Origin: a virus
Direction: 5' to 3' (one strand)
Length of the DNA: 33,356 bases
Virus record (IMG/VR): IMGVR_UViG_3300032265_000173
Coordinates: 1-33,356 of that record
Every line of letters begins with the position of its first letter. Position 1 is the first letter of the stretch. Position numbers and translations under genes: made by a program. Below are positions 4,030-27,016 of this stretch, one piece after another. The notes beneath the pieces were generated by a model. It saw only the letters and a list, made by a program, of their open reading frames with translations. It had not been told where the DNA came from and ran no database searches.

Positions 4030-4193
4030 TGGCGGCTTGCGGTATATGTTCAGAACTAGGCAAGAAATTACACAAGCGCTGGTACAACTCGTACAAAGTC
4101 TATGTTTGTATGAAATGCGCTCTTGACCATGAAGATAAATTAGATGTGGGGGCGCTCAATGGACATTATCAAGACACTCACAACTGCGCTTAA
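4029..4193 (+). CDS. small Cys/His-rich putative zinc-finger protein
   Basis: A 54-residue protein starting at ATG 4029, which overlaps the previous stop; an upstream TTG start is unlikely. Metal-ligand candidates are C4 and C7 (CGIC), C27 and C30 (CMKC), H34, then H46, H51 and C53. The last 35 bases overlap the start of the Cas4-like gene in another frame. Function unknown; a nucleic-acid-binding zinc protein is a reasonable guess. Confidence 0.65.
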   Translation: MAACGICSELGKKLHKRWYNSYKVYVCMKCALDHEDKLDVGALNGHYQDTHNCA

Positions 4194-4812
4194 AGAGGCA
4201 GACAATCAACGCGCTAGATCAACTCAGGTAGAGCTAGGTGCTTCATCTGTTGGTGGGTGTCGCGCTCAGGCTTGGCATATCATTAACCAAACTCCGAAAA
4301 TAAACGAAGGAACTGAATCACTTGCGGCGATATTGGGTACTGCTATCCATAACACGGTACAAGAAGCGTTACAGTCATACGATCTGTTTGGTGAGGACTA
4401 TCTCCTTGAACAAGGGTTTGAGACCCCGGAACTCAAAGGGCATTGTGATTTCTATTCTCGAAAAGATAAGTTGGTCGTGGATTGGAAAACTACTAGCCTT
4501 AAAAACTTACCGAAGTTTCCGAGCGCACAACAGAAAATGCAAGTGCAACTTTACGGTTATCTCCTTACCAAGAATGGTTTGGAAGTTGAAACAGTAGCTC
4601 TTTGCGCTATTCCTAGAGATGGGCGTATGCGTGATATTAAAGTATGGCAAGCCCCATACGATGAGAGCGTTGCACTAGAAGGCTTACAGTGGATTGCTGA
4701 GATTAAAGCAATGGAATCTGCTCCCCCACCCGAGAGAAGCGCGGCTTTCTTTTGCCGCGATTATTGTTCTTACTACGACCCTAGCGGAAAGATTGGATGC
4801 ACAGGAAAATGA
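4159..4812 (+). CDS. Cas4/RecB-like PD-(D/E)XK exonuclease
   Basis: A 217-residue protein with the start at ATG 4159, preceded by GGGGG. The RecB-type nuclease core shows H64, GHCDFY (D97), VVDWKTTS (D108, K110) and the QVQLYGYLL helix (Q-x-x-x-Y motif, about 128-136). One Cys near the N-terminus (C34, GGCRAQAW) and three near the end (C199, C203, C214) match the 4Fe-4S ligand set of Cas4-type exonucleases. No CRISPR array or other cas gene is near. With the Rad52-like protein it probably resects ends for recombination. The stop overlaps the WhiB start. Confidence 0.87.
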   Translation: MDIIKTLTTALKEADNQRARSTQVELGASSVGGCRAQAWHIINQTPKINEGTESLAAILGTAIHNTVQEALQSYDLFGEDYLLEQGFETPELKGHCDFYSRKDKLVVDWKTTSLKNLPKFPSAQQKMQVQLYGYLLTKNGLEVETVALCAIPRDGRMRDIKVWQAPYDESVALEGLQWIAEIKAMESAPPPERSAAFFCRDYCSYYDPSGKIGCTGK

Positions 4813-12032: not shown

Positions 12033-12239
12033 ATGATTACCGCCGAAGCCACTCTTGATGAAATAGATGAAGCTCTAGCGCACTTGCGCGAACGCTTACA
12101 AGATCGCTACGGTAATCGCCTGACCTATCAACAGAGGCAACTTTACCTTTCTAGCGTAGATGATCTCCTAGATGCAAGACTTTCACTAACGGAAGGCAAC
12201 CGTGAAAATTTCAATAACAGAGCTATCTCTAGACCCTAA
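12033..12239 (+). CDS. small helical protein of unknown function
   Basis: A 68-residue protein with ribosome site TAGGATAGGA before ATG 12033. It is a helical hairpin (ATLDEIDEALAHLRERLQDR, then LTYQQRQLYLSSVDDLLDARLSL) and ends 38 bases inside the methyltransferase gene. The first gene of the late operon; small helical proteins here sometimes assist packaging, but nothing specific is recognised. Confidence 0.7.
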   Translation: MITAEATLDEIDEALAHLRERLQDRYGNRLTYQQRQLYLSSVDDLLDARLSLTEGNRENFNNRAISRP

Positions 12240-13365
12240 AAACGCTCGCAAGCACTCTCAGCGTAACCTTGACGCTATTGCGGCTTCTCTGCTAAAGTTT
12301 GGCCAGCGCAAGCCTCTGGTTGTTCACCGTGGCGTTGTCTTAGCGGGCAACGGAACTCTAGAGGCCGCGCGTTCTCTTGGCTGGACAGAGATTGATGTTG
12401 CCGAAGTTCCCAATGATTGGGATATGGATACGGCTAAAGCCTATGCGCTCGCCGATAACAGAACGGCTGAACTGGCTGAGTGGGATGAATCTGAACTCGC
12501 CAAACAATTATTAGAACTTGTAGATAACGAGTGGGATATAGCCGAATTAGGCTTTGAGATGCCACAGGTTATTGAAGTTGAGCCTGTTGACGAAGACGAT
12601 GTACCGGAAGCCCCGGCAGAGCCTAAAACTAAATTAGGAGATGTGTGGCAACTAGGTAAGCACCGTTTAGTCTGCGGAGACTCTACTGATGTGACGGTTC
12701 TAGACAAACTCCTAGGAAATGAAAAGGCTGATCTAGTCTGGACGGATCCACCATACGGCGTAAGTTATGTGGGCAAAACTAAAGATGCTCTTACTATTGA
12801 AAACGATACGCTTAATATTGCCGAACTTGAAGAATTCTTGCGTTCTGCTTTTAATGCAATTTTTACTGCTACAAAGCCCGGTGCTTGTTGGTATGTAGCC
12901 GCGCCTTCGGGCAACTTGTTTCAAGCCTTTAGCATTCCTTTATCAGAATTAGAAGTATGGCGGCACACCCTTGTATGGGTAAAGGACACCCTTGTTATGG
13001 GGCGCGCCGACTATCACTACCGCCACGAATCTATCTTCTATGGCTGGACACCGGGAGCGGCGCATCAAACCCCGCCAGACCGCAAGCAAGACACTATTTG
13101 GGAAATAAAGCGCCCAAAGGCCAACAAGGAACACCCTACGATGAAGCCAGTTGAACTTATTGAGCGCGCTATTCAGAACTCTAGCCTTGCAGGTCAATTA
13201 GTCCTAGATGCCTTTGGTGGCTCAGGGTCTACCCTTATTGCGTGTGAGCAGACAAAGCGCGTGGCTAGGCTAATAGAGCTAGACCCTAAATACTGTGATG
13301 TTATTGTGACCCGATGGGAGAACCTTACAGGGCTAAAAGCCGAGCTTGTTACTGTAAGTAATTAA
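12202..13365 (+). CDS. ParB-like/DNA methyltransferase fusion
   Basis: A 387-residue protein, GTG start behind GGAAGG. The N-terminal ParB-like module (about 1-95) has DPKNARKHS, a KFGQRKPLVV strand, LAGNGTLEAAR and ADNRTAELA. A linker rich in acidic and proline residues leads to an amino-methyltransferase with TDPPYG at about 181-186 and FGGSGST at about 338-344, i.e. catalytic motif before SAM motif (beta class), plus HPTMKP. It would methylate adenine N6 or cytosine N4. No cognate nuclease is near, so it is probably an orphan enzyme protecting phage DNA, expressed just before packaging. Confidence 0.9.
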   Translation: MKISITELSLDPKNARKHSQRNLDAIAASLLKFGQRKPLVVHRGVVLAGNGTLEAARSLGWTEIDVAEVPNDWDMDTAKAYALADNRTAELAEWDESELAKQLLELVDNEWDIAELGFEMPQVIEVEPVDEDDVPEAPAEPKTKLGDVWQLGKHRLVCGDSTDVTVLDKLLGNEKADLVWTDPPYGVSYVGKTKDALTIENDTLNIAELEEFLRSAFNAIFTATKPGACWYVAAPSGNLFQAFSIPLSELEVWRHTLVWVKDTLVMGRADYHYRHESIFYGWTPGAAHQTPPDRKQDTIWEIKRPKANKEHPTMKPVELIERAIQNSSLAGQLVLDAFGGSGSTLIACEQTKRVARLIELDPKYCDVIVTRWENLTGLKAELVTVSN

Positions 13366-15128: not shown

Positions 15129-15456
15129 TCCGCTTAACATTACAGTTCGCCAAAATCAGGAATGGGCTATTACTTTCTCCTATACAGATTCAACTGGAAC
15201 GCTGATCTCTTTGGCTGGATATACGCCACTACTTCAGTTCCGGACATCTGCGCTCGCTAAGACAACTGCGCTTTCTCTTACAGTTGGCAACGGCATTACC
15301 TTTAACCCAACATCATTGCCACAGGTTCAAGTAGATACAACAATCAACTGCGCTCCCGGCAAGTACGAGTGGGATCTTAAACTCACGCCTTCTAACGGCT
15401 CTTCTATCTTCCTAGGTGTCGGAACTGTTCAAGTCAATGCTGAGGTTTCTCGATGA
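15097..15456 (+). CDS. small beta-rich virion protein ahead of collagen-like fibre
   Basis: A 119-residue protein started at ATG 15097 with GGAG 6 nt before it, overlapping the terminase end in a different frame. Mostly beta strands (ITVRQNQEWAITFSYTDSTG, PLLQFRTSALAKTTALSLTV, YEWDLKLTPSNG). It resembles the small beta-sandwich baseplate or fibre-attachment proteins encoded before fibres in siphophages, but similarity is by shape only. Ends in GATGA overlap with the fibre gene, so translation is coupled. Confidence 0.65.
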   Translation: MPSQAISQTPDPLNITVRQNQEWAITFSYTDSTGTLISLAGYTPLLQFRTSALAKTTALSLTVGNGITFNPTSLPQVQVDTTINCAPGKYEWDLKLTPSNGSSIFLGVGTVQVNAEVSR

Positions 15457-17432
15457 CCGATAACATCAATGTATCGCCCGTAACGCCTCAGATCGTTGTC
15501 TCTGCGGCTGGCGCTCGCGGTGTTCAAGGAGCTACTGGAATACAAGGAGCGCAAGGCGTTCAAGGCACTCAGGGCGTACAAGGCACTCAGGGTCTATTGG
15601 GATTGCAAGGCGTACAAGGAACTCAAGGCACTCAAGGGGTTCAAGGAACTCAAGGCTTCTTGGGTACGCAAGGAACTGTTGGAGCGCAAGGCACACAGGG
15701 CGTACAGGGAACTCAAGGCGTACAGGGCTTGCTTGGATTGCAAGGCATCACAGGCGCTCAAGGTACAACTGGAACGCAAGGAGCTACTGGTACTCAGGGA
15801 TTAGTTGGTATTCAAGGTGCTATTGGTACTCAGGGAACAACTGGCGCTACAGGCGCTCAGGGAGTTCAAGGTTTACAAGGCCGCCAAGGTACAACAGGTA
15901 TTCAGGGTACAAACGGCACACAGGGAACTACTGGTACTCAGGGTACAACCGGAACTCAAGGTTTAACTGGTATTCAAGGAACTCTTGGCACTCAAGGAAC
16001 TACTGGCACATCAATTCAAGGAACTACTGGCGCTCAAGGCGTTCAAGGTATTCAAGGATTGCAGGGTCTTGGAGATCGCTACGCGACAAACTCCACAACT
16101 TCATTTGCTCTTGGTATAGGTGGATCAATCTCCATCACCGTAGGAACTGCACTTTCATATTCGGTTGGTCAATCTATCGTTGCCGCATACAACGGAACAA
16201 ACTATCAACTAGGAACTGTTACCGCTTACAATGTAGCAACAGGCGCTCTTACCTTTACGCAGACAACATTTGTAGGAACAGGCACATACGCTTCTTGGGC
16301 AGTCAATTTAGACGGCGCGCAAGGTATTCAGGGCGTTCAAGGAACTATCGGTACAGGCACTCAAGGTGCTACAGGTAGCCAAGGTACTATTGGTATTCAA
16401 GGTGCGGTTGGAACTCAAGGCGCTCTTGGCTTGCAAGGAGCTACAGGTTCTAATGGCTCAACAGGCACACAAGGAACAACAGGCACACAGGGCTTAACTG
16501 GTATTCAAGGTCTAACTGGAAATACTGGAAATACTGGCTCTCAAGGTACTACTGGTACAACTGGAAATACCGGATCGCAGGGAACTACAGGAACTCAGGG
16601 CGCGACAGGTACACAGGGTTTAATTGGAACACAGGGAACTACAGGTACTCAAGGTACTGCTGGATTTGTAGGTTCTAACGGTTCGCAAGGTACTCAAGGT
16701 ATCCAAGGAATTCAGGGCAATCAAGGTACAACAGGATTGCAAGGAACAACAGGTGCTACAGGCTCACAAGGTACAACTGGTTCTCAGGGAACGACTGGAT
16801 TCCAAGGTACTACGGGAGCGACAGGTTCTCAGGGAACTACGGGCTTGCAAGGTACTACTGGTACATCAGGCTCTAACGGCTCGCAGGGTACTACGGGTAC
16901 ACAGGGAACTACTGGATCAACTGGTAGCCAAGGCACCCAAGGCACTACTGGACTTCAGGGAACTCAAGGCACACTTGGCCTACAGGGGCTTCAGGGAACT
17001 ACTCCCACCGTATCTCTCCAGCAATGGCGCAAGGCAGCATCAGGTGGAGAAACTTCACTATCTGGCACAGATGATTTCTCCACTTCGCTTTCTTATGTAG
17101 TTGGCGCTGAACAAGTATTCATCAACGGCGTACTTCTAGAGCGTGGAGTGGACTACACCGCCTCAACAGGTACTTCAATCACAGGACTAACTGCCTTGAT
17201 CGCTGGCGATATCTCTACCGTTATCTCGCCATCATCTTTCACAATCGCTAACGCTATCCAATCTACACAGATCGCCGCTAAGGGTGATTTGATTGTAGGT
17301 ACTGGTTCGGGTACATATACCAATCAGGGCGTAGGCGGCAACCTTCAAGTATTACTAGCAGATTCCTCACAAGGCGATGGCGTTCGTTGGGGCGATGACC
17401 TACAAATCCTACAAATTATGGGAGCAAGATAA
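15453..17432 (+). CDS. collagen-like tail fibre
   Basis: A 659-residue fibre. After a short head (about 1-20, NVSPVTPQIVVSAAGA) there are two Gly-X-Y collagen-like arms (about 21-206 and about 288-517) made of units such as GTQGVQG and GTTGTQG. They are separated by a non-collagen beta island of about 80 residues (DRYATNSTT...), and followed by a C-terminal globular tip (about 518-659) that ends KGDLIVGTGSG...DDLQILQIMGAR, a KGDLI motif also seen in other phage fibres. The arms are expected to form a triple helix and the tip to bind the receptor or a partner. Starts in an ATGA overlap with the preceding gene. Confidence 0.88.
   Translation: MTDNINVSPVTPQIVVSAAGARGVQGATGIQGAQGVQGTQGVQGTQGLLGLQGVQGTQGTQGVQGTQGFLGTQGTVGAQGTQGVQGTQGVQGLLGLQGITGAQGTTGTQGATGTQGLVGIQGAIGTQGTTGATGAQGVQGLQGRQGTTGIQGTNGTQGTTGTQGTTGTQGLTGIQGTLGTQGTTGTSIQGTTGAQGVQGIQGLQGLGDRYATNSTTSFALGIGGSISITVGTALSYSVGQSIVAAYNGTNYQLGTVTAYNVATGALTFTQTTFVGTGTYASWAVNLDGAQGIQGVQGTIGTGTQGATGSQGTIGIQGAVGTQGALGLQGATGSNGSTGTQGTTGTQGLTGIQGLTGNTGNTGSQGTTGTTGNTGSQGTTGTQGATGTQGLIGTQGTTGTQGTAGFVGSNGSQGTQGIQGIQGNQGTTGLQGTTGATGSQGTTGSQGTTGFQGTTGATGSQGTTGLQGTTGTSGSNGSQGTTGTQGTTGSTGSQGTQGTTGLQGTQGTLGLQGLQGTTPTVSLQQWRKAASGGETSLSGTDDFSTSLSYVVGAEQVFINGVLLERGVDYTASTGTSITGLTALIAGDISTVISPSSFTIANAIQSTQIAAKGDLIVGTGSGTYTNQGVGGNLQVLLADSSQGDGVRWGDDLQILQIMGAR
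15520..17000 (+). repeat. collagen-coding repetitive DNA
   Basis: Two tracts (about 15520-16070 and 16315-17000) consist of degenerate 9- and 18-base units built on GGNACNCAAGGN with many near-identical copies. This is coding repeat DNA rather than CRISPR, and is prone to unequal recombination, so fibre length may vary between isolates. A unique 245-base stretch separates the tracts. Confidence 0.85.
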
Positions 17433-18865: not shown

Positions 18866-20260
18866 ATGGCAAATACACTCGTACTCTTAGAACGCATTAC
18901 GGTAGGAGCAGCAGGAGCATCTTCTGTTGTTTTCAGCAACATTCCGCAGACTGGTTATACGGATTTGAAAGTTGTATGGTCAGCAAAAACTGCTGGCACT
19001 TCAACCAACTATGCTGCTTGTCACTTCACGCTCAATAATGACACAACAACAAATCAGTATGTTCAAAGAAGATTGAGAAACAATCAAGGAACCGCTGATA
19101 CAGATGGTCAGACATATATCTTTTTAGATAACTCTTATGCAGATTCCAGCATTTCCGCTAACGCAAATGTATTTTCTCAACACGAGTTCTATATTCCTAA
19201 CTACACATCTTCCAATCAGAAGTCCATTGATTTTGTTACAACAATGGAAGGTAACTACGCCACATCAGGTTTTTATGGAAACATCATTGGCGCTGGTTTA
19301 TACAAAGGAACTTCTCCAATCACAAGTATTGAATGTTATGCAGATGGTTCTTCATTTGCCCAATACTCAACCTTCTCCCTATACGGCGTATCAGCCGTAG
19401 GCACTACCCCTACCAAGGCTCCAAAGGCTCTTGGCGGTAGCATCATTGAGACTGACGGTACTTACTGGTATCACGCTTTCCTATCATCAGGAACATTTAC
19501 ACCAGCCGTAGGATTGTCTTGCGACATTCTCGTAGTCGCTGGCGGCGGTGGTGGTGCTTCAGACTTAGGTGGCGGCGGCGGTGCAGGTGGCGTACTCGCT
19601 TTTGCTGCTCAAGGACTTACTGCTAATACTGGATATACCGCAACAGTCGGCGCTGGCGGTGCTGCTCAAACTACTGGAAGCACTAATGGTAATAACGGAA
19701 GTAACTCACAATTTGGTTCATTGACCGCTTCTGTTGGTGGCGGTGGTGGAGCGCATTATGATACCAATGGTCTTGCAGGTGGTTCAGGCGGTGGTTCAGG
19801 TAGATGGACAAGCGGAACAAACGGAACTATTGGTGGAACGGCCACTTCAGGTCAAGGTAATAATGGTGGCGGTGACATAACTTCCGATAGCAATGGTTGG
19901 TACACAGGTGGTGGCGGTGGTGCAGGTGCAGTAGGTGGAACCGCAACAACTACTTCATCAGGTAGTGGTGGTGCAGGAGTAAATACCTATACTGGTTTTG
20001 GTTCTCTTACAACTGCTTTATCAACACTTGGATTAGGTGCAGGTGGTTATATTGCTGGCGGTGGTGGTGGCGGTGCATATAATGCTAAAACTGCTGGAAC
20101 CGCAGGTTCAGGTGGTGCTGGTGCTGGTTCCAATGTAGGTAGCAGCGCAGGAAATAATGCCACTCCCAATACTGGTTCTGGCGGTGGTGGCGGTTCATCA
20201 TCAACAGGTCTTGGTGGTGCTGGTGGTTCAGGTCTTATTATCGTTCGTTACGCAGTCTAA
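18866..20260 (+). CDS. adhesin copy 3 fused to glycine-rich domain
   Basis: A 464-residue protein. The first 175 residues are the shared adhesin domain (VFSNIPQTGYTDLKVVW ... YSTFSLYGVSAVG). A linker with IIETDGTYWYHAFLSSGTF leads to a large glycine-rich region (about 224-460) with GGGGGA blocks, ending GGSGLIIVRYAV, a layout typical of phage receptor-binding tips with polyglycine-type packing. GGGGGC precedes ATG 18866. Together these suggest the most exposed receptor-binding component. Confidence 0.82.
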   Translation: MANTLVLLERITVGAAGASSVVFSNIPQTGYTDLKVVWSAKTAGTSTNYAACHFTLNNDTTTNQYVQRRLRNNQGTADTDGQTYIFLDNSYADSSISANANVFSQHEFYIPNYTSSNQKSIDFVTTMEGNYATSGFYGNIIGAGLYKGTSPITSIECYADGSSFAQYSTFSLYGVSAVGTTPTKAPKALGGSIIETDGTYWYHAFLSSGTFTPAVGLSCDILVVAGGGGGASDLGGGGGAGGVLAFAAQGLTANTGYTATVGAGGAAQTTGSTNGNNGSNSQFGSLTASVGGGGGAHYDTNGLAGGSGGGSGRWTSGTNGTIGGTATSGQGNNGGGDITSDSNGWYTGGGGGAGAVGGTATTTSSGSGGAGVNTYTGFGSLTTALSTLGLGAGGYIAGGGGGGAYNAKTAGTAGSGGAGAGSNVGSSAGNNATPNTGSGGGGGSSSTGLGGAGGSGLIIVRYAV

Positions 20261-20273
20261 GGAGAAGTAACAA

Positions 20274-20501
20274 ATGGCTGATACAAAGTTAGTAGTAGAT
20301 TGCTCAACAGGAGCAGTTGTGGAGTTTGAACTTACTCCAGAGGAAATTGCAGAGCGTGATGCTATGGCTGCTCAGGCTGAGTCTGATCGTGTAGCGCGTG
20401 AGGCTGAGATCGCCGCTGCTAACGCCGCTAAGGAATCTGCTCAGGCTAAACTCGCTGCTCTTGGATTGACCCCAGAAGAAATCGCCGCACTTTCTAAGTA
20501 A
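20274..20501 (+). CDS. small fibre-associated helical protein
   Basis: A 75-residue protein with a short beta start (TKLVVDCSTGAVVEFELT), then an Ala/Glu-rich helix (about 22-75) with EEIAERDAMAAQAESDR. It resembles the small proteins placed after phage fibres that act in fibre assembly, in shape and size. AAGGAG precedes the start. Chaperone role is inferred. Confidence 0.65.
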   Translation: MADTKLVVDCSTGAVVEFELTPEEIAERDAMAAQAESDRVAREAEIAAANAAKESAQAKLAALGLTPEEIAALSK

Positions 20502-20509
20502 GGATCATT

Positions 20510-21640
20510 ATGACTAAATCCCGCAACACCTCAGCGCTGATTGATTCAGTTACCGCCAAAGGCGATCTCATTGCGGGTACTGGGGCTAATACCACTACTA
20601 ATTTAAGCGTAGGCGCTGACGGATCAACACTCGTGGCAAACTCTTCTGCCAGCACAGGCGTATCGTGGGCAGGAAACTTGGCCGCTGGGCGTAATGCCGT
20701 TCTAAACGGAGCCTTTGACATCTGGCAGCGCGGTACTTCCATTACAACAAATGGAACCTATACCGCAGACAGATGGTATTGCAGCCTTGGAACGCCAGGA
20801 AGCGTATCTCGCCAAGCCACAAGCGACACAACTAATCTTCCAAATATTCAGTATTGCGCGAGAGTAGGAAGAAATTCAGGGCAATCTGCACAAGGATTTG
20901 AACAAATTTCTCAATCACTTGAAACCGTCAATTCAATTCCTTTTGCTGGCAAAACTGTAACAATGTCATTTTACGCAAGAGCGGGAGCAAACTTCAGTTC
21001 TACCTCTAACGCATTGACATTATTCTTGCAATCGGGAACAGGAACAGACCAAAATGTTTTGGTTACTTGGACTGGTGGCGCAACCGTTATCAATTCAACT
21101 GCAACCCTAACAACTACTTGGCAGCGCTTTACTTTTACTGGAACTGTTCCAAGCACTGCCACCCAATTAGGTTGGCAAATTTACTATCAAACTTCGGCAT
21201 CTGCCGCAGGAGCAGCCGATTACTTTGAAATCACTGGTATTCAGTTGGAAACTGGTTCGGTTGCAACCCCATTCATTCGTCAGAATGGAACACTTCAGGG
21301 GGAGTTAGCCGCTTGCCAGAGGTACTGCTACCAAACAAGCGCATCTCAAGATGTTCTTGGTTCGGGTGTTGCAAACAGTTCAACGGTTGCTTACACCTTT
21401 GTTCCTTGGCCTACAACTATGAGAAGCACTCCAGCAGTTACTTCAAGTAGCGGTGGCTCGTACTTTACTTTATACGCAGGAACAGTAAATCCTGGAGTAA
21501 GTGCTATTGGCACAGTTTACAACCCAACTGTTCGTGGCGCTCTTGTTTCTTGGACAACATCGGGATTGACTCAAGGCTATGCAGTTGTGGCAGTTGCTAC
21601 AAACGCAAACGGATATATTAGAGCGGATGCAGAATTATGA
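20510..21640 (+). CDS. tail fibre with jelly-roll carbohydrate-binding domain
   Basis: A 376-residue fibre. The start is a short repeat motif (AKGDLIAGTGANTTT) that also closes the collagen fibre, then a jelly-roll module: NAVLNGAFDIWQRGTS, ADRWYCS, GKTVTMSFYARAG, WQRFTFTGTVPSTATQLGW and EITGIQLETGSVATPF, followed by AACQRYCYQ and a beta C-terminal tip (about 280-376). This modular order is common in phage tail fibres that bind glycans. No hydrolase active site seen. Confidence 0.82.
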   Translation: MTKSRNTSALIDSVTAKGDLIAGTGANTTTNLSVGADGSTLVANSSASTGVSWAGNLAAGRNAVLNGAFDIWQRGTSITTNGTYTADRWYCSLGTPGSVSRQATSDTTNLPNIQYCARVGRNSGQSAQGFEQISQSLETVNSIPFAGKTVTMSFYARAGANFSSTSNALTLFLQSGTGTDQNVLVTWTGGATVINSTATLTTTWQRFTFTGTVPSTATQLGWQIYYQTSASAAGAADYFEITGIQLETGSVATPFIRQNGTLQGELAACQRYCYQTSASQDVLGSGVANSSTVAYTFVPWPTTMRSTPAVTSSSGGSYFTLYAGTVNPGVSAIGTVYNPTVRGALVSWTTSGLTQGYAVVAVATNANGYIRADAEL

Positions 21641-21801
21641 TTTATGAAGTTATCAAAACAGAAGGCTTTGCTGATGTCATCAAGGGTACAACCGAAGATG
21701 GTCAGGTTTGGTACATCCCTACCGACCCTGCAAATGCCGATTATCAGGCATACCTCAATAAAGACACACTCCCATCCAACTCTTCTACACCACAGAACTG
21801 A
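21637..21801 (+). CDS. small protein closing the fibre block
   Basis: A 54-residue frame from ATG 21637 overlapping the fibre stop (ATGA). Sequence has a beta turn (IKGTTEDGQVWYIPTDPANA) and a DYQAYLNKD segment, a motif I associate with small proteins next to tail fibres. The stop is immediately followed by a 6-bp hairpin (21800-21814). Function unknown; probably a fibre-assembly or tip accessory. Confidence 0.6.
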   Translation: MIYEVIKTEGFADVIKGTTEDGQVWYIPTDPANADYQAYLNKDTLPSNSSTPQN

Positions 21802-21814
21802 TACTGCTAGTATC
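21800..21814 (+). promoter_or_regulatory. small hairpin before the glycosidase-like gene
   Basis: A perfect stem GATACT-GCT-AGTATC sits 5 bases before ATG 21820, where no Shine-Dalgarno is visible. It may shape translation initiation of the downstream cassette. Stem is short, so significance is uncertain. Confidence 0.35.
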
Positions 21815-21819
21815 ACCCT

Positions 21820-22791
21820 ATGAACTTAGTCCAAAAGGCGGTTGGACATGGGGGCAAGTTAGCCCCTATTGCAATACCTAACACCTTTGGGGGAATGAAC
21901 CCCTCGGTATTTATTGACTCTGACGGCGATATCCTTGTTAATGTCCGGGTAGTCAATTACATTCTTTACCATAGCGAGAACAAGCAACTCTATCCCTCAA
22001 ACTGGGGGCCGCTTGCCTATCTCCATCCTGAAAAGGATCAGCGCCTAGTTACCGAAAATTACCTAGTACGCCTCAATAGCAATCTAGTAATGACCGACTG
22101 CACCAAGGTTGAGATGCTGAACTTGCATCAGCCCATTTGGGAGTTTGTCGGACTTGAGGATGCTCGCCTTGTCTATTGGGATGATTATTACCTCATAGGC
22201 GTTCGGCGCGATACCACAACTAATGGCGTAGGTCGTATGGAACTAACCAAGATCACGCTAGATAAAGAGAACTGGGTTGCTAAGGAAGTTGATCGCAAGC
22301 GAATCCCGGCTCCAGCGCCAGATAACTCGTACTGCGAGAAGAACTGGATGCCGATACTTGATAAGCCTTATCACTTCGTCAAGTGGTCTAGCCCTGTTGA
22401 GGTGGTCAAGTTTGACGGCTCAGAAACCAAGCAAGTCAGCGTTCGCCAAGGACTCCAACCGCCTAAAGATCAACGCGGCGGATCTCAGCTCATACGATGG
22501 GGCAACTGCTACATCTCGATAACCCATGAGGTTGATCTCTTCAAGAATTACCTTCAGCAAAAGGATGGCATATACCGGCATAGGCTCTGTGTCTATGACG
22601 ATCAGTTAAACCTTGTCGGTTTATCTAAAGAGTTCTCGTTCCTAGATTTTAGGATTGAGTTCTGCGTAGGTATCGCTGAATATCAAGGCGATCTACTGAT
22701 TAGTTTTGCCGTTGCTGATAACGCTGCATTTGTGTTACGCACACCACGCGGTATTATTGAGGATCTAATAGCGGAGGCGCTTGATGCTTGA
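21820..22791 (+). CDS. beta-propeller GH130-like glycosidase/phosphorylase
   Basis: A 323-residue protein. Motifs fit the five-bladed beta-propeller family related to GH130 phosphorylases: MNPSVFIDSDGDILVNVRVV, GLEDARLVYWDDYYLIG, EKNWMPI, RGGSQLIRWGNCYISITHEV and FRIEFCVGIAEYQGDLLISF. Such enzymes act on mannosides or related glycans, though distant members may only bind sugar. It has no signal peptide, so it acts inside the cell or in the virion. No clear ribosome site precedes ATG 21820. It is first of three coupled genes that seem to be a glycan cassette. Confidence 0.75.
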   Translation: MNLVQKAVGHGGKLAPIAIPNTFGGMNPSVFIDSDGDILVNVRVVNYILYHSENKQLYPSNWGPLAYLHPEKDQRLVTENYLVRLNSNLVMTDCTKVEMLNLHQPIWEFVGLEDARLVYWDDYYLIGVRRDTTTNGVGRMELTKITLDKENWVAKEVDRKRIPAPAPDNSYCEKNWMPILDKPYHFVKWSSPVEVVKFDGSETKQVSVRQGLQPPKDQRGGSQLIRWGNCYISITHEVDLFKNYLQQKDGIYRHRLCVYDDQLNLVGLSKEFSFLDFRIEFCVGIAEYQGDLLISFAVADNAAFVLRTPRGIIEDLIAEALDA

Positions 22792-23341
22792 TGAACTGAT
22801 CTACGCACTATCTAAAGACCCATTTGATCCTAAACTCAACTTTGATGTTGCCGTTGAATACGAGAAGGCAGATCAGATAGCGAGCGCAGTTTCCTTTTAT
22901 CTACGCACCGCAGAGTATGGCAAAGAGTGGGGCGATCTTTATGTCTATACCTCGCTGCTCAAACTTGCCAAATGCTTTAACGATCAGAATGACCGCCTAA
23001 CCACAGTCGAGACTTGCCTCATGCAAGCAATCGGTTATGACCTTGACCGCCCAGAAGGTTTCTTCCTCTTGTCGCAGTTCCACGAACGCCAAGGCAACTG
23101 GCGCAAGGCGTGGGTTTATTCGCGCATAGGTCAAAATGTGGCTAACGATGATTTTGGCTTTAGCCCACTACCTGCCGATGTTGGCTATGTATCGTATGCC
23201 CTAGAGTTTGAAGAAGCCGTTGCAGCATGGTGGCTAGGTCGCAAGCAAGAATCTATTGATATCTTCAACGAACTACTTCGCTTGGATATTTCAGACGAGT
23301 ACCGCAGCGCGATAGAGGCAAATCTTGCCGTTATTCTTTGA
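22784..23341 (+). CDS. TPR-like helical repeat protein
   Basis: A 185-residue protein of paired helices, started at ATG 22784 inside the end of the previous gene. Repeat-like segments (PFDPKLNFDVAVEYEKADQI, YDLDRPEGFFLLSQFHERQG, EFEEAVAAWWLGRKQESIDI) resemble tetratricopeptide repeats, which often accompany glycosyltransferase genes. Its stop is overlapped by the methyltransferase start. Likely a protein-protein scaffold for the two neighbouring enzymes. Confidence 0.7.
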   Translation: MLDELIYALSKDPFDPKLNFDVAVEYEKADQIASAVSFYLRTAEYGKEWGDLYVYTSLLKLAKCFNDQNDRLTTVETCLMQAIGYDLDRPEGFFLLSQFHERQGNWRKAWVYSRIGQNVANDDFGFSPLPADVGYVSYALEFEEAVAAWWLGRKQESIDIFNELLRLDISDEYRSAIEANLAVIL

Positions 23342-23984
23342 TATTGGCGCTAATCGTGGCGATGCTACGGTTGCTGCGCTCGCTCAAGGTTACGATGTAA
23401 TAGCCGTAGAACCTTCACGAATTTATGCAGATTTAGTTAAAAACTTTATTTATGAATCTCGCGTGATCCCGCTTAAGTTAGCCGCTTCTGATAAAGATAA
23501 CGAGCGCGTGGAGTTTTACGAGGCCGCAGAAGATGGACTAAGCACTCTCAATAAAGAGTGGCTGACCTCAGAGACTATGCCCTATGCCGGCAAGCCTTTC
23601 TGGACTACCTACGCCAATACGATCACGATAGACACTCTCGCCAAGATATACGGCGAGCCTGATCTAATCAAGATAGATGTTGAAGGCGCTGAGTGGTCGG
23701 TATTTAACGGGATGATTTGCAAATACAAGATGCTTGCCTTTGAGTGGACTCAGGAAACGCTAGACGAACACCAAAAGCAGTTACACTACTTAGCAGCTCT
23801 TGGCTATACAGAAGTAGCACCGCAGTTTATAGAACCCCACTTAGATCAGCCTGACAAGTGGTACGACATAGATCAGGATTTATGGGCTTGGCGAGATGCA
23901 CACGCTAAGGCTTGGGAAACTGATGGCTGGAAAAAGAATGAACTAAGACCAACCGCCGATGTAGGTATGTGTTGGGTTCGCTAA
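23325..23984 (+). CDS. FkbM-family SAM-dependent methyltransferase
   Basis: A 219-residue protein using a TTG start with GAGG 6 nt upstream. The SAM-binding motif is FDIGANRGDAT (about 5-15), followed by VEPSR and LIKIDVEGAEWSVFNGM, the FkbM signature. FkbM enzymes O-methylate sugars or other small groups. It lies next to the beta-propeller and TPR genes, which suggests methylation of a glycan. Codon usage looks like its neighbours, so no recent transfer is obvious. Target is unknown. Confidence 0.85.
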   Translation: MPLFFDIGANRGDATVAALAQGYDVIAVEPSRIYADLVKNFIYESRVIPLKLAASDKDNERVEFYEAAEDGLSTLNKEWLTSETMPYAGKPFWTTYANTITIDTLAKIYGEPDLIKIDVEGAEWSVFNGMICKYKMLAFEWTQETLDEHQKQLHYLAALGYTEVAPQFIEPHLDQPDKWYDIDQDLWAWRDAHAKAWETDGWKKNELRPTADVGMCWVR

Positions 23985-23996
23985 TAAGGAGACAAT

Positions 23997-25805
23997 GTGG
24001 GCATATTTGATCGCTTTGCCAAAGCAGTAGCAGACCAACTAGAGAAGTCTCCTAAGCTCTTTGCTGGCGCAAATACTATGACCGAGGCACAGATGCGTTC
24101 GGCTGGCGGTATTGCTCAGACTCAGTACGGATACGGCACATCAACGCCAATGCCTCGAAACCCACTTCTTGCCAATGTACCTTTCGCACCGGGCTTGCCT
24201 TTAATCCCCGGCGCTCTCAACCCGCTTAACCCTGATACTGGCAGACCTAATCCACGCCGTTATGAGTATTTGGTAGCACAGAACATCAATGTCAGCGAAA
24301 ACCGCCTAGTGCCATTTAAGACACTACGAGCCGCCGCAGATCAAATTGACATCCTGCGCCGTTGCATTGAGGTAAGGAAGGCCAAACTTACGGGGCTAGA
24401 GTGGGATATCGTTCTCACCGATGCCGCCTCTGAGCGCATTAGCGCCGAGTCTGGCGGTAATCACCTACGAGCTATGGCAGATGCCCGTATTAGATTCGCG
24501 CCCGAGATCGCGCGTATGCGTAAGTTCTGGGAAACTCCTGACCCTGCTAACGGCCTTGGTTTCACCGATTGGCTCTCAATGGCTATTGAAGAGATGGATG
24601 TTCTTGATGCGCTCGCCGTTTGGCCTGAAGCCACAGTAGGCGGGGAGATCCGAGGATTACAGATTCTAGATGGCTCGACTATCAAGCCACTCATTGATGA
24701 TCGCGGTATGCGCCCTGATCCCGAGACAGGCCCGGCTTTCCAACAGATTCTTTACGGATTCCCACGCTCTGAGTTCTCTGCAACGGTAGATGACGAAGCC
24801 GCAGATGGAGAGTTCTCTAGCGATGAACTTGCTTACCTTATTCGCAATCGCCGCGCTAATACAGTTTATGGATACTCACCAGTAGAGCGCGCTCTACCTA
24901 TGGCAGATATCTACTTGCGCCGTCAGCAATGGTTACGCGCTGAGTTCACAGATGGCGTTATGCCAAAGACCTTCTTAGAGCTACCTGAATCTGCCAATCT
25001 TACACCTGAGCAGATCCGCGCCTATGAAAATATCTTTAATGACGATCTAGCAGGGCAGACAGAACAACGCAATCGTATGCGCTTCCTCTTGCCGGGCGCC
25101 TCACTCAAGTTTGAAGAAGGCTACCAAGAGAAGTTCTCAGATCGTTTAGATGATTACCTCATCACCTCTATTACAGGACATTTTGGCGTTCTTCCTACTG
25201 AGATTGGATTCTCTGCTAAAGGCGGTATGGGTTCATCAGGTCATCAGGCAGGCGAAGCAGAAGCGGCAGAGCAGATCGGTACTATCCCAACTGCGCGCTG
25301 GCTCTCACAACAGATTTCTAACCTTTCTTATCGCTGGCTCGGTATGCCACGCGAACTTGAATTCCGTCTAGCACCTTCCGAGCGTTCTAATACTGAAGAA
25401 GCCGCAAAGCGCGATGATATTCGCAAGCGTTCTGCTGGTATGACTGTTAATGAAGGTCGAGCCGATCTAGGCTTGCCTCTTATTGATGCACCTGAAGCCG
25501 ATATGCCATTCCTTGTAGCAGGTCAATCAGTATTTCTCTTTAGCCCTGATGGAATGGTTGCCGCAGGAACTCCTGTAAATGAAAATGGCGAACAGACCGA
25601 GCCTGCCCCTGTTGCTGAGAAGCCAGTAGAGCCTAAGAAGGAAGAAGTTAAAAAGTTTATTCGTTGGGTACGCAAAGGCAATACTGCAAAGTCATTTAAC
25701 TTTGAACACTTAGAATCTACCTACGCTGAAGTTCTCAATAAGTTTGTTGAGGCTGGCGATCCTGACGGCGCTCGTTGGTACGCTGAACGCTATTTGGGGT
25801 TGTAA
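23997..25805 (+). CDS. portal protein
   Basis: A 602-residue protein started with GTG 23997 behind AAGGAG. After a disordered N-terminus, motifs such as RRCIEVRKAKLTGLEWDI, VLDALAVWPE, YGYSPVERALPMADIYLRRQ and NDDLAGQTEQRNRMRFLLPG, with the helical crown after about 370, match tailed-phage portals (HK97/SPP1-type). It forms the ring through which DNA enters and the head-tail vertex. C-terminal tail is charged. Followed directly by the MuF-like gene, as usual. Confidence 0.9.
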   Translation: MGIFDRFAKAVADQLEKSPKLFAGANTMTEAQMRSAGGIAQTQYGYGTSTPMPRNPLLANVPFAPGLPLIPGALNPLNPDTGRPNPRRYEYLVAQNINVSENRLVPFKTLRAAADQIDILRRCIEVRKAKLTGLEWDIVLTDAASERISAESGGNHLRAMADARIRFAPEIARMRKFWETPDPANGLGFTDWLSMAIEEMDVLDALAVWPEATVGGEIRGLQILDGSTIKPLIDDRGMRPDPETGPAFQQILYGFPRSEFSATVDDEAADGEFSSDELAYLIRNRRANTVYGYSPVERALPMADIYLRRQQWLRAEFTDGVMPKTFLELPESANLTPEQIRAYENIFNDDLAGQTEQRNRMRFLLPGASLKFEEGYQEKFSDRLDDYLITSITGHFGVLPTEIGFSAKGGMGSSGHQAGEAEAAEQIGTIPTARWLSQQISNLSYRWLGMPRELEFRLAPSERSNTEEAAKRDDIRKRSAGMTVNEGRADLGLPLIDAPEADMPFLVAGQSVFLFSPDGMVAAGTPVNENGEQTEPAPVAEKPVEPKKEEVKKFIRWVRKGNTAKSFNFEHLESTYAEVLNKFVEAGDPDGARWYAERYLGL

Positions 25806-27016
25806 TGAAATCCCCGGCAAAAGGCGCAATCGTAAGAATTGCCGCTAAAAACGCTGACAAGATTCGCGCCGCTTTCTCGGTAGCGATTGACTCAGAAGCG
25901 ATAGCGCAATCCTTTGCAGAGACTCACCCTGCTGGCGGGGAAGTAACCCCACAGATGGCAAGAGACTGGGCGCAGATTCATATAACAGTAGATAAGAAGC
26001 CGCTTGTAGATGCTCTACGCAGGCTTTACGCAGATGGTTGGGTAACAGGCGATCTTGCCGCTCGCTACACCCTAGCTCACCTTACCCGCAATAAGGCCAT
26101 AAATGCCCCTGCGGTTGGTTTGGTGAACTGGGATACTTGGACACCCGGTAACGCCGCCGCCTCTGCCCTGCTATCGCCTAAAGGCGGGTTGCAAACCCTT
26201 CTCGACAAGGCACAGATCACCATTGACGGAGTATCTAATACAAAGTTAGACCGCATCGGCACGATTCTTTCTGATGCGCTCGCGCAAGGCTTAACGCCTC
26301 AAAGCGTTTCAACTATGGTAGATCAGGTTGTAAATGATCCTGCTCAAGCTTTAGTGATTGCTCAGACCGAAATGAGTCGCGCAGTAGTTGATGCCGAACT
26401 TGCCCAATACGCAGATTCAGGCGTTGAGATGGTTGAATGGTTGGTAGCCGATCCTTGCCCTGAGTGCCAAGAGAACCTAGATGCTTCCCCTATCTCTATT
26501 GACGAAGATTGGCCTAATGGAGATGCGCCAGTTCACCCTAACTGTATGTGCGATATAGCTCCTTATATTACAGATAGCCTTTCACTATCAGTAAGCGCGG
26601 ATATTGTTAAATCAGTACCTAGCAAGATAGAAGTAGAACGCGCACTATCTCGCCTCAAGATTCTGCCTAATCCACCTTCCGGTGAACAAGGTGCAGATAC
26701 AGATAAGTTAGTTGAATCGCCTTGGCAAGTTATAGATCCAATCACTGTTAATCCGAGCATTTGGGATACGGCTGAAATGGCGTTAGTTCAGTTTGATAAT
26801 CTCACTGCAACAGACGATTATTTATTCCGTAAGAAACTTAAAGAACATATTAAGGCTATGGGTCAAGCCATTACACCTTACAGAAGTTTCGCCCTTATCG
26901 TTGAGAGAGACGGTCAGCAAATTATTATTGACGGACACCACCGCCTTATGGCTATGTGGATGCTCGGCTTTACAGAAGCACCAGTTTGGTTAGCCAAAGA
27001 AACTAAGGAGAAATAA
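25805..27016 (+). CDS. MuF-like head morphogenesis protein with C-terminal ParB-like domain
   Basis: A 403-residue protein, ATG in TAATG overlap with the portal. Residues about 150-250 form the MuF-like minor head domain: IAQTEMSRAVVDAELAQYA, then the cysteine-bearing ending PCPECQEN...DAPVHPNCMCD. After a linker, residues about 300-400 show a ParB-like module with DGHHRLMAMWMLGF (about 376-389), preceded by PSIWDTAEMAL. MuF proteins are often fused to toxin or enzymatic C-termini that travel with the capsid. The tail domain could be an injected or capsid-borne nuclease, but a structural role is possible. Confidence 0.82.
   Translation: MKSPAKGAIVRIAAKNADKIRAAFSVAIDSEAIAQSFAETHPAGGEVTPQMARDWAQIHITVDKKPLVDALRRLYADGWVTGDLAARYTLAHLTRNKAINAPAVGLVNWDTWTPGNAAASALLSPKGGLQTLLDKAQITIDGVSNTKLDRIGTILSDALAQGLTPQSVSTMVDQVVNDPAQALVIAQTEMSRAVVDAELAQYADSGVEMVEWLVADPCPECQENLDASPISIDEDWPNGDAPVHPNCMCDIAPYITDSLSLSVSADIVKSVPSKIEVERALSRLKILPNPPSGEQGADTDKLVESPWQVIDPITVNPSIWDTAEMALVQFDNLTATDDYLFRKKLKEHIKAMGQAITPYRSFALIVERDGQQIIIDGHHRLMAMWMLGFTEAPVWLAKETKEK

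Follow-up and report, generated by a model that had tools for sequence, protein, structure and literature searches.

A candidate glycan-building gene cassette between the tail fibre and portal genes of environmental phages

Between the tail fibre genes and the portal gene of a phage, three coupled genes encode a propeller protein with a GH130/GT108 fold, a TPR superhelix and an FkbM-family methyltransferase. With moderate confidence, we propose that this cassette is a mobile module working in the cytoplasm, which assembles a methylated glycan on a protein of the phage, the neighbouring fibres being the likeliest target. The analysis covered the whole stretch of 33,356 nucleotides of IMG/VR record IMGVR_UViG_3300032265_000173, called the window below, together with its relatives in viral and cellular genomes.

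Gene organisation, exchange and distribution of the cassette

The three genes lie on the plus strand. Gene 1 (21820-22791) encodes the propeller (323 aa), assigned from its AlphaFold2 model, Foldseek searches, invariant residues and motif mapping. Gene 2 (22781-23341) encodes the TPR superhelix (186 aa), assigned from Pfam TPR_2, its model, Foldseek and PHROG 13126, and gene 3 (23325-23984) encodes the FkbM-family SAM methyltransferase (219 aa), assigned from PF05050, TIGR01444 and its SAM motifs. The propeller and TPR reading frames overlap by 11 bp and the TPR and FkbM frames by 17 bp. Upstream, on the same strand, are a Thr-rich collagen-like tail fibre gene (15453-17432; Pfam collagen, 5.2e-61), a glycine-rich fibre protein gene (18866-20260; PF21722, 2.6e-14) and, directly 5' of the cassette, a tail fibre gene (20510-21640; phrog_4492 tail fiber, 7.6e-44), the products of all three being candidate acceptors. 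Downstream are the portal gene (23997-25805, plus strand; PF04860, 6.7e-13; phrog_2662, 5.1e-57), which starts at 23997, 12 bp past the end of the FkbM gene, and a MuF gene. Coordinates, overlaps and flanking matches agree with an earlier note, made from the letters of the window, which had described three tightly coupled genes between fibres and portal. Being conserved as proteins across many loci, the three frames are not chance ORFs. Their G+C content is similar to that of the neighbouring genes. No Rfam RNA or tRNA was detected in the whole window, no sigma-70-like site in its positions 20000 to 25000, and a megablast search of the window did not find a near-identical named phage.

The portal protein was used as an anchor for finding relatives. 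At a portal identity of at least 61%, the cassette adjoins the portal gene in 39 of the 42 assessable loci, oriented as in the window in 25 and reversed in 14. The remaining 3 close relatives have no cassette, and in 2 of them terL abuts the portal gene. Below 61% identity, 27 of the 29 assessable loci lack the cassette and 2 carry it; the contrast in cassette presence between close and distant portal relatives is strong, the loci not being independent of each other. Searching the whole records of 25 cassette-free loci, of up to 40 kb, revealed no copy elsewhere. In the cassette-free loci inspected, the fibre set that separates terL from portal is shorter, and the cassette goes with the long fibre block. 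In close relatives the set is thus neither absent nor randomly placed, and the gene order that the earlier note had held to be unusual is the usual one in this lineage.

In the propeller tree, the window groups with loci L001, L002 and L003, whereas L002 and L003 fall in another well-supported clade of the portal tree. This mismatch indicates that cassettes have been exchanged. At least two or three orientation switches are found on the propeller and portal trees. An invertible cassette was considered and rejected: no long inverted repeats flank the cassette in the window, L124 or L130, so that the reversals do not correspond to an obvious site-specific inversion. The reversed cassettes imply that membership of the late operon is not obligatory, which counts against the explanation that we favour. 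The contig of relative L129 (IMGVR_UViG_3300048694_000100, 40,164 bp) has propeller gene fragments at its two ends and therefore probably represents a whole genome of about 40 kb in circularly permuted form.

Scanning IMG/VR yielded at least 599 propeller relatives, and at least 593 with a more distant propeller profile, two sets that may overlap. Among GTDB genomes, phage-type patterns were matched in 5 contigs only, all in MAGs or draft bins, where virus DNA may be included, and the propeller profile was positive in 2 of 291, 4 of 299 and 6 of 199 genomes in partly overlapping samples. The family is thus abundant in phage contigs and rare in the sampled cellular genomes, and none of Pfam, PHROGs and NCBIfam has a dedicated model for it. 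Named carriers are Synechococcus phages S-SCSM2R and DSL-LC02 and, remotely, Actinomycetia phage DSL-LC01. In DSL-LC02, tail fibre genes surround those for the propeller, for a TPR-FkbM-radical SAM fusion and for a second FkbM protein. No existing description of a propeller-TPR-FkbM set in phages was found in the open-access literature.

The TPR gene follows the propeller gene in the great majority of the near loci, and a TPR-bearing gene belongs to the contiguous downstream chain in 62 of the 74 distant loci with enough flank. Propeller and TPR are the conserved core of the cassette in both sets. The third part is more variable. FkbM follows in roughly half of the near loci, is absent from 8 portal relatives with at least 2 kb upstream, and elsewhere either gives way to an O-methyltransferase together with GT25 or is fused with the TPR protein. 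At distant loci, the propeller is fused to TylF-like or FkbM methyltransferases or to radical SAM, and the downstream proteins carry GT2, GT17, GT25 and GT7C domains. Where identifiable, the third part is always of a sugar type (FkbM, TylF-like O-methyltransferase, GT25, GT2/GT17/GT7C or radical SAM). Of the trio that the earlier note had treated as a unit, propeller and TPR do travel together, but FkbM is optional and stands outside the core. DUF6445, an uncharacterised domain, is fused to TPR-bearing proteins in L082 (8962-10827) and L260 (6956-8809) and occurs in 6 of 86 among the cassette partners.

In bacteria, the parts of the cassette also occur fused to each other. One protein of 729 aa, from a genome of the cyanobacterial group, matches the phage TPR profile at residues 183-343 (E 1.6e-12) and the propeller profile at 391-715 (E 3.6e-25), the residue numbers referring to a 733-aa open frame; the SunS glycosyltransferase (E 3e-8) and GmaR are matched at its N-terminal end. 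TPR also precedes propeller in three further bacterial proteins, each about 1,200 aa long, and the C-terminal domain of one of them (L282) matches macrolide-sugar O-methyltransferases. In L286, which this cyanobacterial-group genome also encodes, FkbM, TPR and propeller share a single frame. These fusions are the strongest argument for the three phage genes acting jointly on sugars. SunS modifies a peptide and GmaR flagellin, and the likeness of the fusion to both points to a protein acceptor. In SunS, GmaR and O-GlcNAc transferase-type enzymes, a TPR is likewise coupled to a sugar-transfer unit; in contrast, the window has no GT2 domain, and catalysis would fall to the propeller, which is a chain by itself. 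One Rhodobacteraceae bin (G003) carries 3 propeller copies on 3 contigs (L281, L285 and L287), and behind each copy comes an ORF of 413-414 aa that matches TPR. For the bacterial homologues L288 to L291, the surrounding DNA examined showed neither a TPR nor an FkbM match.

Folds and active-site residues

As a single sequence, the propeller gave no significant match in Pfam, PHROGs, NCBIfam or the PDB, and single-protein PDB and family searches with the remote relative L084 were similarly unproductive. An alignment of 44 phage homologues (A1; 61-96% identity to the window protein) was used to build an AlphaFold2 model with a pLDDT of 86.5 and a pTM of 0.89. The top Foldseek matches of this model in the PDB all belong to GH130, with E-values down to 7.8e-10 and TM-scores of about 0.53-0.62: beta-mannoside phosphorylases come first (5b0p, E 7.8e-10), followed by the mannoside synthase Uhgb_MS. 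The dual mannosyltransferase-phosphorylases of Leishmania (GT108) share the fold, the likeness being at fold level, with MPT-2 (6q4z) at rank 50. The GH130 family PF04041 weakly matches 20 of the 44 homologues (best E 0.0015). At its curated cut-off the window propeller has no match and is therefore not a formal GH130 member. One propeller homologue from a named phage is annotated as a beta-mannosyltransferase. In BFVD, the model resembles Pithovirus LCPAC proteins of 450-560 aa (TM 0.75-0.80) and, more weakly, parts of giant-virus proteins named fucosyltransferase, WcaK-like and LicD-like, which suggests a wider use of such propellers in virus glycan building.

Active-site residues were mapped by profile alignment and motifs onto a comparison set made of GH130 proteins and BT3780, the published residue numbers of the latter being checked against its sequence. 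N27 corresponds to N74 of BT3780, E113-D114 to E141-D142 and D300 to D363; R43 corresponds to R89 by motif spacing, and K174, within the motif SYCEKNW, may tentatively correspond to K199. The candidate general acid of BT3780 is D142, and its mutants D142N and D363A have no activity (PMC4599007). N27, D114 and D300, which occupy catalytic or sugar-site positions in GH130, are invariant in the 44-homologue alignment. Over the whole length, the profile alignment to GH130 subgroups has a low probability, and it is convincing at the N-terminal, ED-x-R and C-terminal stretches only.

On the nucleophile side, the motif is TECGPP..YNG in BT3780-type hydrolases, RVGAGAAP..YHG in a phosphorylase-like GH130 group and QRGGSQ..ITHE in the phage family. 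GH130 phosphorylases are marked by three basic residues facing the phosphate, and hydrolases by a pair of Glu. The phage propeller thus has Arg and His (R219 and H236) at the hydrolase Glu and Asn positions, while keeping the catalytic Asp. R219 and H236 fit the phosphorylase-like motif; a third basic residue, R129 or R130, was matched by position alone. R129-R130, R219, H236, the catalytic Asp and the sugar-site residues are invariant down to about 40% identity. The residues of note are N27, R43, E113-D114, K174, R219, H236 and D300. With GH130 mannoside phosphorylases and mannosidases (PF04041) the phage family shares the propeller fold, the sugar-site Asn and Asp and the ED-x-R motif with its catalytic Asp, and with the phosphorylase-like group also the Arg/His pair. 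It differs from GH130 in scoring below the Pfam cut-off, in its invariant SYCEKNW and RGGS motifs, and in always standing alongside TPR and methyl- or glycosyl-transferases. Having Arg/His in place of the hydrolase Glu motif, the propeller is likely, judging from these residues, a transferase or a phosphorylase and not a glycosidase. The term glycosidase-like in the earlier note holds for the GH130 fold but not for the active-site signature: the catalytic Asp D114 is present, but a sugar-cleaving activity is not supported, as a phosphorylase-like Arg/His pair stands in place of the hydrolase Glu motif.

Gene 2 matches Pfam TPR_2 below threshold (5.9e-5). Its AlphaFold2 model, built from 38 homologues, is a ten-helix superhelix (pLDDT 93.4), which bears out the earlier assignment as TPR. 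Among solved structures, consensus TPRs and the O-GlcNAc transferase TPR domain come nearest to it, and the protein also matches the TPR part of PHROG 13126 (glycosyltransferase). As these fold matches are generic, the fold alone does not name the partner; the protein is probably a scaffold or an acceptor-binding subunit. Gene 3, similarly, is confirmed as an FkbM methyltransferase, above the curated cut-offs of both PF05050 (3.4e-15; 57 bits, cut-off 22.7) and TIGR01444 (7.9e-18; 65.3, cut-off 37.7). Its SAM motifs FDIGANRGD and IKIDVEGAE are intact and conserved among 45 sequences.

Fibre neighbourhood, possible function and alternatives

Sugar-transfer genes of this kind are consistently close to virion fibre genes, collagen-like or glycine-rich in other phages. 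Once the nearest set of loci is left aside, collagen-like genes make up 53 of the 256 within 2.5 kb of the cassette, against 12 of 161 beyond 4.5 kb (nominal p about 3e-4). Pfam matches on the 111 nearest neighbours comprise 17 collagen, 12 glycine-rich, 4 Mtd_N and 4 fn3, and PHROG tail-fibre families have about 17 near against 4-5 far members, the fibre-proximity count being inflated because some loci share ancestry with the fibre region of the window. When flank is available on both sides, a collagen-like gene is found within 2.5 kb in 22 of 32 loci; its absence from about a third of them counts against the explanation that we favour. In the window, the collagen-like fibre contains 138 G-X-Y triplets, in which Thr occupies 59 X and 40 Y positions. 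This Thr array could offer dense O-glycan sites, an argument that is no more than suggestive, as collagen-like genes located far from the cassette show a similar richness in Thr.

No transmembrane or signal-like segment was predicted in 168 cassette proteins (alignments A1, A5 and A6), from which the work of the cassette would be cytoplasmic. The genes present, their folds, conserved residues, coupling, swapping and fusions, and the closeness to fibres are observations; catalytic direction, sugar, acceptor and purpose we infer as follows. The probable activity of the propeller is that of an inverting glycosyltransferase, or of a phosphorylase run in the synthetic direction, within the GH130/GT108 superfamily. 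It would take a mannose-type sugar from a sugar phosphate or a nucleotide sugar and transfer it; D114 would serve as general acid, and the phosphate would be bound by R219/H236 (perhaps R129/R130). The role of the TPR protein would be to keep the enzymes in contact and/or to offer them a protein acceptor, as in O-GlcNAc transferase and SunS-like GT2-TPR enzymes, and FkbM would O-methylate the transferred sugar. As acceptor, a tail fibre encoded nearby is likeliest, either collagen-like and rich in Thr/Ser or glycine-rich; it would be modified while still in the cytoplasm, ahead of assembly, and swapping the third part or the whole cassette would give a different glycan. The coherent glycan-directed job anticipated by the earlier note is well supported by the joint travel of propeller and TPR, by the fusions to sugar methyltransferases and glycosyltransferases in phages and bacteria, and by the nearby fibres.

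Phage-encoded glycosyltransferases decorate the capsid and tail tube of mycobacteriophage virions (Freeman 2023, as cited in PMC12619734). As summarised there, phage-encoded sugar enzymes act on virion proteins; they differ from those of the cassette, which has another core enzyme and for which fibres are the presumed target. If the cassette does glycosylate fibres, it would give environmental phages an enzymatic means, open to test, of varying their adhesins at a level above the protein sequence, and would link protein glycosylation with enzymes of the GH130 type. More speculatively, the propeller might found a new glycosyltransferase family active in TPR-guided fibre glycosylation, with the swappable third part serving as a glycan code that diversifies receptor-binding surfaces in freshwater and marine phages.

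Less probable, but a serious alternative, is a role on the host surface, where the cassette would modify an LPS O-chain or capsule during infection and thereby block superinfection or adsorption of progeny to debris. The pelagimyophages provide a precedent: in their host-recognition cluster glycosyltransferases adjoin the fibres, and the authors favour a change of the host O-chain (PMC7029224). These are also aquatic phages with sugar enzymes next to fibre genes, but their enzymes are mostly GT8, and the portion of that article considered here does not mention a propeller-TPR core. The GT25 and WavE matches, which are LPS-type names, and the reversed cassette of 14 relatives, which permits expression apart from the late operon, agree with a host target. 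Against it, none of the 168 cassette proteins has a membrane or signal-like segment, the SunS/GmaR-like and TPR fusions indicate a protein acceptor, and the window genes overlap and run into the portal gene, which makes late expression likely.

The position among virion genes would also suit a non-catalytic sugar-binding or structural virion component, the methyltransferase being unrelated cargo. A lectin function was examined on account of sequence matches to PLL2 and rejected: these are weak, and GH130 enzymes come best in the fold search. Since the catalytic Asp and the residues of the sugar site do not vary down to about 40% identity, and since there are fusions with methyltransferases and glycosyltransferases, we consider a non-catalytic propeller improbable. 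Glycosylation of phage DNA or of a modified base, evading restriction, is a role often assigned to phage glycosyltransferases; it appears very improbable here, as the cassettes examined include no gene for modified-base synthesis, and the protein-glycosyltransferase-like fusions and fibre neighbourhood point elsewhere. Equally slight is the probability of a catabolic mannoside phosphorylase or mannosidase feeding host sugar metabolism as an auxiliary metabolic gene: the best solved structural matches are mannoside phosphorylases, but the constant TPR partner, the methyl- and glycosyl-transferase partners, the lack of any transporter or sugar-catabolism gene among cassette partners and the missing hydrolase Glu motif all speak against it.

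Three other genes of the window were noted. The MuF-type minor head protein (25805-27016) has a C-terminal ParB-like nuclease domain (weak in Pfam, 0.027, with several PHROG ParB/nuclease matches) which is missing from most relatives, where MuF measures 258-271 aa; it resembles MuF proteins with variable toxin-like tails. A fusion of a ParB-like domain with an N6/N4 DNA methyltransferase is encoded at 12202-13365, just 5' of the terminase genes, and a Cas4/PD-(D/E)XK-like nuclease at 4144-4812, in the early region.
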